A stretch of 64,000 nt of DNA from Fodinisporobacter ferrooxydans (GTDB lineage: Bacteria; Bacillota; Bacilli; Tumebacillales; MYW30-H2). This document shows, in pieces, positions 18,050-63,490 of the stretch. Position 1 is the first letter of the stretch, and each line of letters begins with the position of its first letter. Made by a program: the position numbers and the translations under genes. The notes beneath the pieces were generated by a model. The model was not told the origin of the DNA, did not search any database, and was given only the letters and a program-made list of their open reading frames with translations. Location: contig NZ_CP089291.1 in the NCBI RefSeq assembly GCF_022818495.1, positions 1,785,001 through 1,849,000 of the forward strand. The letters run 5' to 3'.

Positions 18050-18068
18050 CTGGTTGAAAATTTTAGAA

Positions 18069-18135
18069 CTCGTATAAGCTCGATAATGTGGTTCGAGCGT
18101 TTCTACCTAGTCGCCGTAAATGACTGGACTACGAG
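18069..18135 (+). ncRNA. Guanine riboswitch aptamer (purine class) before pbuG
   Basis: The P1 stem CTCGTA/TACGAG encloses the conserved core: TTTCTACC in J2/3, a GCCGTAAATG-type P3 loop and GGACTACGAG. The ligand-contact pyrimidine in GACTACG is C, which specifies guanine or hypoxanthine rather than adenine. A terminator stem follows at 18190, so the switch should turn transcription of the permease off when guanine is plentiful. Confidence 0.95.
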
Positions 18136-18189
18136 CCGAAATGGATCTGGAGAGACCGATATGCAAAATATTCTGCATATGAAGTGCCG

Positions 18190-19975: not shown

Positions 19976-20105
19976 CTTGGAATGAATTTCAGAAGATTGA
20001 TGGAAGTTCTTTGAAAGAATCGATGGAAGTCCTTTGAAAGTTCTTTATGTGAATTATAGGAATGAATGCATACGTTTTGTGCTTGTAAATGAAAATAGTA
20101 ACATG

Positions 20106-20172
20106 CTCGTATATGCTCAAGGATACGGCTTGAGTGTTTCTACCAGGTCACCGTAAATGATCGGACTACGAG
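20106..20172 (+). ncRNA. Guanine riboswitch aptamer (purine class) before purE
   Basis: It has the same architecture as the pbuG aptamer: P1 CTCGTA/TACGAG, GTTTCTACC, a CACCGTAAATG loop and GGACTACGAG with the guanine-specifying C. It sits in the leader of the twelve-gene purine operon, so purine synthesis and uptake answer to the same ligand. Confidence 0.95.
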
Positions 20173-20278
20173 TGGAAGTAGATCTAGGGAACCACCCCGA
20201 CAGGAGATTTGGACCGAGCGATCTAGATGTGAAGATTTCTGCTGGCGGCTCCTCTTCACATTACACCGAAGGGATAAA

Positions 20279-58329: not shown

Positions 58330-58497
58330 CTAGGGAAGCCGGAGAAGGCCTTGAAATGGCTTGGCTTGTTGAGGCTGTCCTTTGGTCATCATGCGATAAA
58401 ACTCTGTTTTAAAGGCGATTGAGAGCTTTATAGCAAGATTAAATAAAATGCTGGACAGTGAAAAGTTTTTGTCGAAAAATTGTTGGATATAGGAATA
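58330..58497 (-). pseudogene. 3' exon: C-terminal end of a reading frame interrupted by the group II intron
   Basis: Beyond the 3' end of the intron, on the minus strand, a frame continues as YIQQFFDKNFSLSSILFNLA, then LSIAFKTEFYRMMTKGQP and QAKPFQGLLRLP, to a stop at 58330. It is about 55 residues with a coherent helix-rich composition, read as the end of a gene whose 5' part must lie beyond the other side of the intron, outside the window. I do not recognise the family; a transposase C-terminus is a guess only. The plus strand of 58149-58330 holds no gene. Confidence 0.4.
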
Positions 58498-58549
58498 GCT
58501 AAGGAGAGTCTTCAACATGACTTGGTCAGTTCTCCTTTTCGCCCTCCTT

Positions 58550-58585
58550 CGCACCGTACGTGATTCTTTCGAATCATACGGCGCT
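58550..58585 (-). ncRNA. Group II intron domain V
   Basis: Minus-strand sequence AGCGCCGTATGATTC-GAAA-GAATCACGTACGGTGCG folds into the catalytic hairpin with a GAAA tetraloop and an AGC triad start, as in bacterial group II introns. Domain VI follows at about 58531-58501. Confidence 0.92.
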
Positions 58586-58598
58586 CCATCATGACCTT

Positions 58599-60113
58599 CT
58601 ACATGAGACGATTCAACTTTTCTCTGAAGGATAGAATCTTTTTCCAGATCTTCTTGCCTAACGAGGCATAATCCTCTTGGCTATGAATCTGTCTGTGGCA
58701 ATGTTCATGTACCGCGGCTAAATTGTTGACTCGATTGACGGAAGCCTGCGGGAGGTGAGGGTCAATATGGTGGATGTGTAGATTGAACGGTTGTAGTTCT
58801 TCGTCACAGACCCTGCATTTCCCTTTGTCCCGGTTATAAGCATAAGCTCGATTCAGGAAGTATTCGAAGTTGTATCTCTTGTCGGTCGCGCCTTTGCTGA
58901 TGATTTTAGAAAAGTGCAGAGATAACAGCTCATCTGCCCGTGCCCGCAAGGGTGTCTTTCCTGTTCGTTCCCGATACAGCTTTCGACCTTCTATCGTGAA
59001 GGGGGATTCCTCCGGATTCTTGAGTTGCGTTTTCTTCCACTTACAAAATGCCAACGAAGTGATGCCGATATTCGCATGCTTGTACGTTACGGCTGGAATG
59101 CCCATTGTATAATCTGCGTGGACACTTGCGAGATTGTTCACTTCGTTGGCGGGAAGCCAAATGCCGCCGTATTTGTCCAATACCCTCTTTGCTTTCCATT
59201 TCAGGTTGTATGCATATTTGCTCAAGATGATGTTGACCCACGTGGTGCATTGATAATATTGGATGATTCCCCTGATCGTTGCGTTGACGACATTGATTTC
59301 ATGGATGAGAGCTTCTTTGTTCTTGCAGCGTTTCAGGGTATTCAATTTCTGGTGGAGTTCCCTCGCTTTGCTTTTCAGCCGAGTTCGGTCGGGCATGGTT
59401 CGCGTCACATAGCCGGTTCGTGATTTGCCTTTGATCATCTTGCATTCACAGCCGAGGAAATGGATCGGCTTCTCTCGGACGTTGGTGATGACTGTCTTCT
59501 CTACCGATAATGCCAGTTTGAGATTCGATCGTAAGTAATTGCTGATTCGTTGTTTCCATTTCTCCGCATTCCGTTTGGTGTCGGTCGCGAGTATCCAGTC
59601 ATCGGCGTAGCGAACGAGATAAGCAGGCTTGAGGCGGCTCCTTTTCTTGAGGGCTTCCTGCTGAGTGCTTGGCGTTGCATACGTCTGTTTGGTTTTCTTG
59701 TTTTCCCATTCCCGGGTCACCCACTGATCGAACGAGTGGAGATACACGTTGGCAAGTAGCGGTGAGATGATGCCCCCCTGTACCGTTCCCAGCGGGTTGA
59801 TCTGAATTTCATCCATGATTCCCGTTTTGAGCATCGCTTTGATGATCATAAGCACTCGTTGATCGCGTATTCCCATGCCGTATAATTGTTTACACAGTTT
59901 GTTGTGGTTGACGCAATCGAAGAATTTGGAAATATCTCCTTCTACGATCCAGGGGTATCCCGTGACATAGAGGATTCGCGTCGTTCTTTCCAGTGCCATA
60001 TGCGCATCCCGCATCGGGCGGAATCCGTAAGAATGCTTAAAGAATTGCGCTTCCATGATCGGTTCCAGAATGATTCTTACACATTCCTGTACGATGCGGT
60101 CGATGATGGCGGG
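58599..60113 (-). pseudogene. Group II intron reverse transcriptase/maturase, C-terminal part (RT-X-HNH)
   Basis: About 504 residues carry RT motifs from RT-2 on: FKHSYGFRPMRDAHMALE, WIVEGDISKFFDCVNH, GTVQGGIISPLLANVYLHSF, catalytic YADD in VRYADDWILATDTKRNAEKW and LSVEKTVITNVREKPIHFLG. A maturase X domain and a C-terminal HNH nuclease (CRVCDEELQPFNLHIHHIDP) follow. The N-terminal 125 residues are encoded 3 kb away at 63117-63490. The apparent GTG start at 60116 lies inside the recombinase element, so this is not a natural gene start. The coding sequence itself looks intact. Confidence 0.9.
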
Positions 60114-60121
60114 CACGGTCA

Positions 60122-60460
60122 GTGCAAATTACACAATCATTCAGTCAGTCTTTGGGATTTCTAACAATTACCCACCCTTTCCACCCCCTTCACGATCAAT
60201 CGTTTCAAATTTTAAAAGTGAAAGAAGTAAATGGAACCCGCATGTACTCCATTCATACCGATTCGGGTATTGTTTGTATCCCTGAATCCTGGACCGATCG
60301 TCACTTGCCTTCGATTCAGGCTATTTCCCGTGCTCCTAACTCCCCACTTTACCTAGGGACTCTAAAAGAATTAATTGATTTCATTAAGAGAAAGGATGAT
60401 CTCCAAACTCGTAAGAATATTATGATTGACAACTTGTCCCATATGGAGGTATTTTCTTAA
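60122..60460 (+). CDS. DUF5372-like protein, 5' end removed by integration
   Basis: The encoded ~112 residues contain the DUF5372-type core FLTITHPFHPLHDQSFQILK, then MYSIHTDSGIVCIPESWTDR. Only a GTG at 60122, without a ribosome site, could start it here; upstream in frame lies a TGA at 60104 in intron DNA. In a circular form the element's right end supplies GAGGAG (63089-63094) and ATG (63103), read in frame as MNKPSARSV into this gene, giving 120 residues. So the gene spans the attachment site. Function is unknown; the family commonly accompanies such recombinases. The next gene starts two bases after its stop. Confidence 0.75.
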   Translation: MQITQSFSQSLGFLTITHPFHPLHDQSFQILKVKEVNGTRMYSIHTDSGIVCIPESWTDRHLPSIQAISRAPNSPLYLGTLKELIDFIKRKDDLQTRKNIMIDNLSHMEVFS

Positions 60461-60461
60461 T

Positions 60462-60833
60462 ATGAATACTACTGATAAGAAATCAAGACCCTATCGTCAA
60501 GAATCGACTGAACAACTATTAACTCGTAGTCAACAAATAGTAGAGTCCTTATTTGATCCTAGCCAGATCCTTCGCGGTTCTCTTATCACACGCAACATCA
60601 AATGTGGTAAATCGGCCTGTCGCTGTTCCACCGGTGAAGGCCATCCTAGTTTCTACCTATCTACTATCCATCAGGGACGCACCCGACTCGATTATGTCCC
60701 GGCTTCCTGGGAGCCATGGGTACGTGAAAGATTAGACAATTATCATATCTTGCAGGAACTTATCGTAGAACTGACAGAAATCAACCTAGAGCTTTTACGC
60801 CGTCGTGAAAAAAGCGAGTTCCTGCAGAAATAA
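60462..60833 (+). CDS. DUF6788-like small protein
   Basis: The 123-residue protein starts at ATG 60462 with TGGAGGT about 14 bases upstream. It contains ITRNIKCGKSACRCSTGEGH, a Cys-x4-Cys-x-Cys with a following His that could bind zinc, then PSFYLSTIHQGRTRLDYVPA and a helical C-terminus. The pattern matches what I know as DUF6788, small proteins found with serine recombinases. A role as directionality or accessory factor is possible but not shown. It starts two bases after the DUF5372-like stop. Confidence 0.75.
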   Translation: MNTTDKKSRPYRQESTEQLLTRSQQIVESLFDPSQILRGSLITRNIKCGKSACRCSTGEGHPSFYLSTIHQGRTRLDYVPASWEPWVRERLDNYHILQELIVELTEINLELLRRREKSEFLQK

Positions 60834-60849
60834 TTCTGGAGGGGATTGT

Positions 60850-61350
60850 ATGTCTAGTTCTGCTTTAGCTGCTTTAGTGGGTAACGACAGCAACAAGGTA
60901 GAAGAATTCGTTTCTGTGTTCGCGAATATGCTGAGCTCATTCATAGCGGCATGGCATGGGGAGGAGGAAATAGCAAATGAATCAGACGATATCGTCCATG
61001 AAAGTACATCCACAACACCTGGATCGGAAAGCACTGATCTACATTCGCCAGTCGACCTTAGCTCAAGTCCGATTTCACAGGGAGAGCACGGAGCGACAGT
61101 ATGCCCTTCAGGAGAAGGCTCTGAGTCTGGGGTGGACACAGGATCAAATTCAACTGATCGACGAGGATTTAGGTTTATCCGGTGGGCAAGGTTCCAAAAG
61201 GCAAGGATTTCAACGACTTGTAGCCCAGGTCTCACTCGGGGAAGTAGGTGCGATTTTTGGTCTCGAAGTTTCTCGCCTGGCTCGTTCTTCCGCAGACTTA
61301 TTGCGCCTACTCGAACTGTGCAGTATATTCGACACCATCGTAGTGGATGA
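60850..61350 (+). CDS. Small frame before and overlapping the recombinase
   Basis: An ATG at 60850 with GGAGGGG upstream opens a frame whose first ~45 residues (MSSSALAALVGNDSNKVEEF, then a helix and an acidic stretch) are independent of the recombinase gene. The frame then stays open for another ~370 bases within the recombinase gene in a different register, giving Ser/Arg-rich low-complexity protein that looks like a by-product. I think a short protein at the 5' end is plausible and the long overlap is not. No family is recognised. Confidence 0.4.
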   Translation: MSSSALAALVGNDSNKVEEFVSVFANMLSSFIAAWHGEEEIANESDDIVHESTSTTPGSESTDLHSPVDLSSSPISQGEHGATVCPSGEGSESGVDTGSNSTDRRGFRFIRWARFQKARISTTCSPGLTRGSRCDFWSRSFSPGSFFRRLIAPTRTVQYIRHHRSG

Positions 61351-63040
61351 AGACGGCATCTATGACTTGAGTGATTTCAATGATCGTCTCATTTTGGGTT
61401 TTAAGGGTACGATGAGTGAAGCAGAGTTACACTTTTTGCGCTCACGTCTCATTGGTGGGAAGAAGAATAAAGCCCATAAAGGAGAGCTGCGCTTTCCCTT
61501 ACCCGTAGGCTATTGTCACGATGTGGACGGCAACACCGTGATTGACCCGGATGAGGAGGTACAGAATGCCGTGCGTCATATCTTTACTGCCTTTCGGGCA
61601 ACAGGCAGTGCGTATGGTGTGGTTCAGTTTTTTTCGCAAAACCATCTTCGTTTTCCGAAAAGAGCATACGGTGGTGTTTGGGCAGGAAAGCTTATCTGGG
61701 GTACGTTAACCCACGGTCGTGTATTGGGGATACTCTATAACCCTGCTTATACGGGCGCTTATGTGTTTGGTCGCTACAAGGATCGAAAACAATTGGATGA
61801 GCAGGGCTTGTTTGTTCATCGCATCGTTCGTTTACCCAAAGACCAATGGGAGGTGCTTATTCACGACCATCATCCTGGGTATATTTCATGGTCAGAGTAC
61901 GAAGAAAATCTCAAACAACTGCAGCAAAATCGAACAAACGCAGAAGTGAGTGGTCCAGCGAGGGAAGGGATTGCCCTACTTCAGGGAATCATCGTGTGCG
62001 GAAAGTGCGGTCGCCGCATGTCTGTTCGTTATACAGGAAATGGCGGGATCGCTCCACGGTATGAATGTAAAGCAAGATGGGAAAATGGCGATCGTGCCAC
62101 TTGTTCTTCCCTTCGCTCTGAACCGGTAGATCAAGCCATTGCCGCCAGAGTTCTAGAGGCTGTACAACCTGCTCAACTTGAACTCGCCTTACGCTCATTC
62201 GACAAGGTTCTAAGCGAAGAAGATAAAGTGGAAACAAGTTGGAAACTTTCCTTGGAAAGAGCCCAGTATGAGGTGGATCGTGCACAACGCCAGTACGACC
62301 TTGCTGAACCGGAAAACCGATTAGTGACACGTGCCCTGGAAGCGAGGTGGAATGAAAAAATGGCGACACTCAACCAAATTCGTGAAGAATACGAGCATTA
62401 CTGCTCAAGTCGTGCATGGCGACCGACAGAGCAAGATAAGCAAGATATTCTATCTTTAGCGGAAAACTTGCCACGTATTTGGCGTGCGACAACAACCGAG
62501 ATAAAGGACCGTAAAAGAATCCTACGTCTATTAATCGAGGATGTCACTGTTTTTTGTGAGCCTGGTCAAGCGGATATTCGTTTAGGGATCCGCTGGCGCA
62601 ATCAATGCCATGAGGTTGTTCACACGACCAAGCCCTTGCCGCATCACTTGGCGCGCAAGCATTCGATGGAGACGATTGATCGTATTCGAGAATTAGCCCG
62701 CGATATGACAGACACTCAAATTGCAGCACATTTCAACCAATCCGGATACCGAACTCCTGAAGGTAAGCCATTTACCACTGACTCTATTCAGTGGCTACGA
62801 TATCGCTACCGCATTCCTGGGCCTTCAAAACAAAGCAATGAATGGACCGTAAAAGAAGTAGCTCTTCACTTTGGTGTAAGCACTCATGTGGTCTATTATT
62901 GGCTGAATAAAGGTTTATTAAAGGCAACCAAAATAGCACCGGGATGGCCATGGAAAATTAAACTTGATGAACACACTAAGAGGACTCTGTCGGATTGGAT
63001 TTCTCATTCAGGCCATATTTCAAAACGTTCAAAAACATAA
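60977..63040 (+). CDS. Large serine recombinase
   Basis: The 687-residue recombinase begins with a resolvase catalytic domain: nucleophile Ser26 in LIYIRQSTLAQVRFH, then the Arg-bearing STERQYALQ and LGLSGGQGSKRQGFQRLV, and EVSRLARSSADLLRLLELC. Next come the Recombinase domain (RFPLPVGYCHDVDG to NPAYTGAYVFGRYK), a Cys-rich zinc ribbon (VCGKCGRRMSVRY, about 340-385), a coiled-coil-prone region and a C-terminal MerR-like helix-turn-helix (WTVKEVALHFGVSTHVVYYW). It should cut and join att sites at a 2-bp core. GGGGAGGAGG lies 8-10 bases before the ATG. It is full length and without frameshift. Confidence 0.95.
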   Translation: MNQTISSMKVHPQHLDRKALIYIRQSTLAQVRFHRESTERQYALQEKALSLGWTQDQIQLIDEDLGLSGGQGSKRQGFQRLVAQVSLGEVGAIFGLEVSRLARSSADLLRLLELCSIFDTIVVDEDGIYDLSDFNDRLILGFKGTMSEAELHFLRSRLIGGKKNKAHKGELRFPLPVGYCHDVDGNTVIDPDEEVQNAVRHIFTAFRATGSAYGVVQFFSQNHLRFPKRAYGGVWAGKLIWGTLTHGRVLGILYNPAYTGAYVFGRYKDRKQLDEQGLFVHRIVRLPKDQWEVLIHDHHPGYISWSEYEENLKQLQQNRTNAEVSGPAREGIALLQGIIVCGKCGRRMSVRYTGNGGIAPRYECKARWENGDRATCSSLRSEPVDQAIAARVLEAVQPAQLELALRSFDKVLSEEDKVETSWKLSLERAQYEVDRAQRQYDLAEPENRLVTRALEARWNEKMATLNQIREEYEHYCSSRAWRPTEQDKQDILSLAENLPRIWRATTTEIKDRKRILRLLIEDVTVFCEPGQADIRLGIRWRNQCHEVVHTTKPLPHHLARKHSMETIDRIRELARDMTDTQIAAHFNQSGYRTPEGKPFTTDSIQWLRYRYRIPGPSKQSNEWTVKEVALHFGVSTHVVYYWLNKGLLKATKIAPGWPWKIKLDEHTKRTLSDWISHSGHISKRSKT

Positions 63041-63116
63041 GATTTACATACCCTAATTCTTTTTTCACTACAAATCCAAAACATATTTGAGGAGTGTGCA
63101 GTATGAATAAACCGTC

Positions 63117-63490
63117 GGAATCCCCAGCGGGCGTTTCTCCGATTTTCCGGGTTTCGGGATATACTTCCTCCGAATGGGATGCGGTTCGTGTCTGGTTAGG
63201 CTGGCTTGTACCCGTGCAATGATCTCGGGGTAGTCCTTTTCCAGAATATGCTCGCGCATCGTTTCCCCGTCGCTGCCCGGTGTTTCGCTGCCTTTGTTGC
63301 TCTTGATGTTATGAATGGCGGTGAGAATGGTTATTTCCGATTTCATGTATTCCAGCAGTCCTTTGAACCGGGGTTTTCCTCCCCGATTCAGGGCGGCTTT
63401 GGTTTCGATATACAGGAAATCCAGCAGATTTCTCAGATCGATTTCGGATGATAGATTCTTGTGTTCAGATAAGTTAGATGGTTGAGCCAA
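63117..63490 (-). pseudogene. Group II intron reverse transcriptase, N-terminal part
   Basis: From TTG 63490 (AAGGGGGG about 8 bases upstream) 124 codons encode the RT N-terminus, including RT-0/RT-1: LTAIHNIKSNKGSETPGSDG, then RRKYIPKPGKSEKRPLGI. The frame enters the recombinase element at 63118. Joined at the GG core to the part at 60111-58599, it makes an uninterrupted protein of about 628 residues. The gene is therefore split but not decayed. Confidence 0.88.

Follow-up and report, generated by a model that had tools for sequence, protein, structure and literature searches.

Predicted splitting of a DUF5372 gene by the attachment site in a family of large serine recombinase elements

Integration-dependent immunity of mycobacteriophage BPs was reportedly described by Broussard et al. 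in 2013. In this phage and its relatives, the repressor gene contains the attachment site attP, and the 3′ end of that gene is removed upon integration, so that a shorter, active protein remains (PMC4557955). In the minicircles of IS110/IS1111 and IS3-type insertion sequences (IS), a promoter is located at the circle junction (PMC11187229). Here, a 64,000-nucleotide stretch of the Fodinisporobacter ferrooxydans genome (contig NZ_CP089291.1, positions 1,785,001 to 1,849,000; hereafter the window) was analyzed, in which a transposon-like element interrupts a group II intron gene. The attachment site (att) of this element very probably lies a few codons inside a DUF5372/Y4bD gene, such that the gene is split when the element is integrated and forms one readable last cistron when the element is circular. 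This layout resembles that of BPs in that the att core lies inside a coding gene (here in frame in 22 of 22 elements) and the integrated and circular forms would encode different products; it resembles the minicircles in that circularization is predicted to turn on expression from the joined ends. However, in BPs the 3′ end of the repressor gene is lost, whereas here the 5′ end, with the ribosome site and start codon, is lost, and nothing translatable is predicted to be left. Integration thus leaves no shorter functional repressor of the BPs type, given that the 5′ end is removed and that Pfam and NCBIfam scans found no repressor domain. Moreover, BPs is a phage and the present element a 3-kb transposon, and the two are compared by layout, not by homology. 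In contrast to the minicircles, a reading frame rather than a promoter is joined, and the enzyme is a large serine recombinase. In neither of these known arrangements does a gene that lacks a start codon acquire one through joining.

The anatomy of the split gene was examined in the window (Table 1). At the right end of the element, ATGAATAAACCGTC occupies positions 63103-63116 and is followed by the core GG; the stretch from the ATG (63103) to the GG core is written AATAAACCGTC. At the left end, the core GG is followed by CACGGTCAGTGCAAATT, and the part from 60122 matches the DUF5372 domain (Pfam PF17342, E 9e-14, 51.7 bits versus a cut-off of 25). When the two ends were joined at the core, the resulting sequence, MNKPSARSVQITQSFSQSLGFLTITHPFHPL..., encoded a protein of 120 amino acids (M N K P S A R S V Q I T Q...) in frame with DUF5372; the predicted circle junction under the split-gene model is AATAAACCGTCGGCACGGTCA. 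In the integrated state, the DUF5372 frame meets a TGA at 60104-60106 upstream, and the frame opened by the orphan ATG continues into the flanking DNA and ends at 63222. A first-pass annotation of this DNA had pointed to the GAGGAG and ATG at the right end, the stop at 60104, the halting orphan ATG and the in-frame 120-residue product of joining, and all of these were confirmed in the sequence. Fusion of DUF5372 to host genes upon integration was also considered and rejected, because the left flanks contain in-frame stops and a start codon ahead of the border is missing from most of them.

The element ends and core were fixed by comparison of copies at unrelated targets. The element is present in the genome (4.86 Mb, one contig) as four full copies, identical to one another, plus a remnant of the right end. 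Three of the full copies lie inside identical group II intron reverse transcriptase (RT) genes, and the fourth (L004; G000:C1:3883969-3886981) interrupts nagA; its flanks are unrelated, while both ends and the GG are identical. Removal of the element yielded a single open frame in the RT target (KRPLGI/PAIIDRIVQ, the slash marking the insertion point) as well as in nagA (VSHI/REPDAQLL). Because identical copies at unrelated sites share their ends and removal rebuilds the target frames, the core and ends can be regarded as established; a short identical core and target open reading frames (ORFs) that are whole once the element is removed represent precise insertion of the large serine recombinase type. 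The position 60114 from which the element had earlier been counted is indeed the first base after the left core, but with one copy of the core included the element starts at 60112. The nagA target encodes, by resemblance, N-acetylglucosamine-6-phosphate deacetylase and is not a mobile element. The group II intron (window 58447 to beyond 64250; L057, L058, L059) is present in three identical genome copies; in each of the three the element sits at the same position of the RT gene, and no empty intron copy remains.

Related elements were taken from plasmid records and other genomes, and both ends were placed by continuity of the interrupted gene. Cores were thus chosen by hand from the target gene, a choice on which the joined frame, a feature of the two element ends, does not depend. 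Both ends were placed in 22 elements, representing about 11 recombinase lineages of Bacillota, Proteobacteria, Actinomycetota and Cyanobacteriota: in Bacillota (window, L004, L041), Burkholderiales (L021-L024, L026), Microvirga (L025), Streptomyces (L031, L032), Nostoc (L033), rhizobia and Aromatoleum with IS21 istA targets (L028, L037, L045), Bradyrhizobium with an istB target (L038), genome G245 of the same phylum with an istB target (L044) and Methylobacterium with an IS66 target (L047), together with elements at a second RT motif (L036, L039) and in IS3-type targets (L050, L051). Recombinases of different lineages can be as little as about 33% identical, and target genes and orientation relative to the target vary. 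The cores were GG, AC, CTT, TT, AA, TTGTA, ATTGTAC, CTCGGAC and CGAACAC, with GG also found in L021-L024, L026, L033, L041 and L044. The joined frame entered DUF5372 without a stop in all 22 elements, and in all 22 the right-end ATG lay 8-20 nt before the core. A Shine-Dalgarno-like, purine-rich ribosome site preceded the split ATG in most placed relatives, and the DUF5372 frame was open to the border in the other placed relatives too; att lay outside the gene in none. Even in Nostoc L033 (6166-7125), where about 1 kb or more of cargo separates the recombinase gene from the right end, the ribosome site and ATG are still found at att. For a random frame, the chance of such agreement in about 11 lineages would be (1/3)^11, or roughly 6e-6, before the conserved ribosome site and ATG are counted. 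Judged from these sequences, the split gene is a family-wide rule among elements with both ends placed, which supports the earlier proposal that the attachment site divides the gene and that only joining of the ends makes it whole. That proposal would have been contradicted by borders at other places, by a left end containing its own start and ribosome site, or by cores that break the frame, and none of these was found in the placed relatives.

The N-terminus of the joined protein is alike across phyla, consisting of M-K/N-x-P-S followed by R-S. Among five Burkholderiales elements, the ratio of nonsynonymous to silent differences per site (pN/pS) in the joined gene was 0.36 overall and 0.35 in the first 23 codons spanning the junction; by this comparison the joined protein is under purifying selection in Burkholderiales. 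Silent differences were fewer near att, with a pS of 0.09 in the left-end codons compared with 0.39 in the domain in the same five elements, as expected where a coding sequence would overlap recombinase-binding DNA.

Promoter-like sites were also compared. The site TTGACA-18-TATTTT before the DUF6788 gene is the best plus-strand promoter-like site of the whole element. On its own it is not significant (37 of 300 shuffles reach its score), but the same position is occupied by TTGACA-17-TATAAT in L007 and TTGACA-17-TAAAAT in L041, and L028 and L037 carry comparable sites before their second gene; it is this shared position, not the score in the window, that counts in the case for a putative promoter before DUF6788. 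The -10 box ends 6-9 nt before the DUF6788 ATG (window 60440-60462; L007 590-624; L041), and a transcript starting from it would be nearly leaderless, with a Shine-Dalgarno-like purine tract inside the promoter spacer. Scans of 11 elements revealed no promoter-like site within 100 nt upstream of the joined ATG, the best scores being no better than those of shuffles, and no circle-junction promoter was detected across the abutted ends of these elements. The split ATG and the recombinase stop codon share bases (ATGA) in Streptomyces, Aromatoleum, Bradyrhizobium and others, so that several relatives have no room for a right-end promoter; in the window, 62 nt lie between the two. Given a promoter-like site before DUF6788, none before the split ATG, and the overlap in relatives, the most likely operon order is DUF6788, small ORF, recombinase, (att), DUF5372, with DUF5372 as the last cistron around the circle. 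The DUF6788 and recombinase genes follow DUF5372 on the same strand in the integrated element, in the same order in relatives, and on this layout both can be transcribed while integrated. Because of the ATGA overlap, the split gene is probably translated by coupling to the recombinase gene in many relatives.

These observations are consistent with the following mechanism. A small transposon-like element would be moved by its large serine recombinase, with the promoter, DUF6788, the small ORF and the recombinase gene staying intact upon integration. Integration would cut DUF5372 in two: the right end would retain the ribosome site together with the ATG and the first 4-5 codons, and the left end would carry a remainder with no start. 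Excision, which from knowledge of the recombinase family would form a circle, would join the ends at the core and restore one readable gene, and genome anatomy suggests that DUF5372 would be made only from this circle.

A 300-nt junction query was used to search about 72,500 plasmid records and the organism's own genome for joined copies. With the Sinorhizobium-type query, 79 plasmid records gave 224 matching places, none of which covered most of the query or represented a joined copy; with the Burkholderiales-type query, 8 plasmid records matched, again with no joined copy; and the genome itself contained none, either as a circle or as a tandem repeat. The lack of joined copies fits a gene that would exist only in a transient circle and is no proof of the circle itself. 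Relatives of the element were not found in viral contig scans, nor were relatives of DUF5372 found in phage records.

Several points weigh against the proposed mechanism. The circle junction was found in no assembled data searched, and the circle-only role of DUF5372 rests on genome anatomy. The codon-selection figures come from five related elements. Core placement was done by hand from target-gene continuity; L048 (Azospirillum), which gave no in-frame junction, was not used because its two flanks derive from different genes and its borders were not placed, and L040, L042, L046, L049, L052 and L053 were left out of the count for lack of a confident placement. DUF5372 has no solved homologue by sequence search. 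Finally, a TTG-Gly codon pair precedes the domain in several lineages and might serve as an internal start, albeit without a good ribosome site.

From such a GTG or TTG, DUF5372 could also be translated when integrated, and the split would merely trim its N-terminus. Annotators do call such starts (e.g., L021 5040 and L022 5025), and the TTG-GG pair recurs in Bacillota, Burkholderiales, Streptomyces and Nostoc. However, those codons have no consistent Shine-Dalgarno sequence before them, TTG is missing in the L028, L037 and L038 lineages, no promoter was detected ahead of them within the element, and the right-end ATG, its ribosome site and its frame are kept across phyla; we consider an internal start unlikely. 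It is likewise improbable that the arrangement is a by-product of compaction, in which the recombinase requires those bases as attP and the gene tolerates the site with no regulatory role. Although the elements are tightly packed and the conserved silent sites near the core (pS 0.09) point to constraint at the DNA level, the frame survives changes in core sequence and length in about 11 lineages, it is kept in Nostoc, where cargo weakens the compaction argument, and no placed att lies outside the gene.

The first-pass annotation had envisaged a switch, in which the circle would express the entire DUF5372-DUF6788-recombinase operon from a promoter in the right end, and the operon would be beheaded and silenced by integration. 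IS110/IS1111 elements are known to form promoters at the junction (PMC11187229), and the 62-nt gap in the window could house one, but the right end contains no promoter-like site, and several relatives have no gap at all. Instead, the window, L007 and L041 have promoter-like sites ahead of DUF6788, and L028 and L037 have others. Beheading and self-silencing are not supported, because the recombinase gene would keep its sigma-70-like promoter, downstream of DUF5372, when integrated and only the tail gene would be cut off; a switch of this kind is highly unlikely. As for chance or mis-annotated ends, a single in-frame junction would be expected with one-in-three odds, yet 22 of 22 are in frame and the rebuilt target genes fix the borders, so the comparative data refute this explanation and leave it a negligible probability.

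Returning to the split gene made readable by circularization, its role can be suggested only tentatively. As its most likely role, a DUF5372 accessory produced by the circle alone might favour integration by the recombinase and prevent re-excision. It is also conceivable, if somewhat doubtful, that the split gene would act as a sensor of physical state, with circle-only DUF5372 flipping the recombinase from excision to integration and perhaps DUF6788 serving as an excision factor.

Table 1. Features of the element and its target in the window
Feature	Position	Strand	Basis or remarks
Group II intron domain V	58489-58586		RF00029 match
Interrupted group II intron RT/HNH gene, C-terminal part	58599..60116	-	RVT_1 and HNH matches; last bases of the listed ORF run into the element
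Mobile element	60112..63116	+	3005 bp with one GG core copy; identical copy with the same ends in nagA (L004); target ORFs uninterrupted after removal
Left GG crossover core (attL)	60112..60113	+	Common to both borders at two unrelated targets
DUF5372/Y4bD gene body without start codon	60114..60460	+	Frame open from core to stop at 60458; PF17342
Promoter-like site TTGACA-18-TATTTT	60426..60455	+	10 of 12 match; ends 6 nt before DUF6788 ATG
DUF6788 gene	60462..60833	+	PF20586, E 4e-19
Small conserved ORF	60850..60996	+	Start 60850, MSSSALAALVG...VEEFVSVFANMLSSFI; between DUF6788 and recombinase
Large serine recombinase gene	60977..63040	+	687 amino acids; Resolvase, Recombinase, Zn_ribbon_recom, HTH_17 (PF00239, PF07508, PF13408)
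Ribosome-binding site GAGGAG of split gene	63089..63094	+	Read from sequence
Split gene start, first 14 nt (ATG AAT AAA CCG TC)	63103..63116	+	Orphaned when integrated; in-frame 120-residue protein on joining to left core
Right GG core (attR)	63117..63118	+	L004 comparison and rebuilt empty sites
Interrupted RT gene, N-terminal part	63118..63490	-	Empty site rebuilds ...KRPLGI/PAIIDRIVQ... in one frame

The frame of the small ORF is open to 61350, overlapping the recombinase gene; L007 and L041 have a similar ORF in the corresponding position, and no NCBIfam match was obtained for the small ORF. The best NCBIfam matches of the recombinase were XisF and CcrB, both far below cut-offs. Its C-terminus (residues 624-664; window 62846-62968) contains a MerR/HTH_17 domain that weakly resembles excisionases, and this helix-turn-helix (HTH) region is possibly a built-in directionality module. 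A structure model of DUF5372 from a two-sequence alignment was weak (predicted local distance difference test score, pLDDT, 68) and gave no significant match; it only suggests a small SH3-like barrel. Neither the searches by sequence nor those by structure linked DUF5372 to a function. The corresponding DUF6788 model (pLDDT 65) showed nothing usable.

In recombinase domain architecture, and in a short core with no longer duplication, the element resembles Ccr of SCCmec and XisF of the fdxN element. The large serine recombinase transposons Tn4451 and Tn5397 are likewise comparable. Relative to such transposons and cassettes, the C-terminal HTH, the accessory DUF genes, the split gene and targets mostly in mobile-element genes are particular to this family. 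A similar gene set, annotated as DUF5372, DUF6788 or an HTH protein, and recombinase, is found in Y4bD/Y4pK-type rhizobial plasmid elements (e.g., on pNGR234a), and the elements of this type in our set (L028, L037 and L045) carry the same split. A literature search, with most subscription literature outside its reach, found no paper mentioning DUF5372, DUF6788, Y4bD or y4pK, and no description of ends, targets or a split gene.

The empty sites sit in conserved motifs encoded by other mobile elements: LGI/P and DIKGL/FD in group II RTs, DKAK/VE in IS21 IstA, and further sites in IstB, IS66 TnpC and the IS3-type integrase (WRR.YN/.VRPH). NagA is the exception, and the family appears to specialize in such motifs. 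Elsewhere in the window, one strand carries two purine riboswitch aptamers (18050-18151 and 20087-20188) separated by about 2 kb.

It is a standing question what makes serine recombinases excise or integrate where no obvious regulator is present; here, the arrangement of the element itself may supply the answer. If the proposed sensor were correct, DNA topology would set the direction of recombination, and no regulated directionality factor would be involved. The split gene would also explain why the annotated starts of DUF5372/Y4bD genes are inconsistent and poorly supported, the true start being about 3 kb away at the other end of the element. For the hundreds of related copies in plasmid records, it predicts that any element interrupting an intron RT or transposase gene would lack the joined protein until it is excised.

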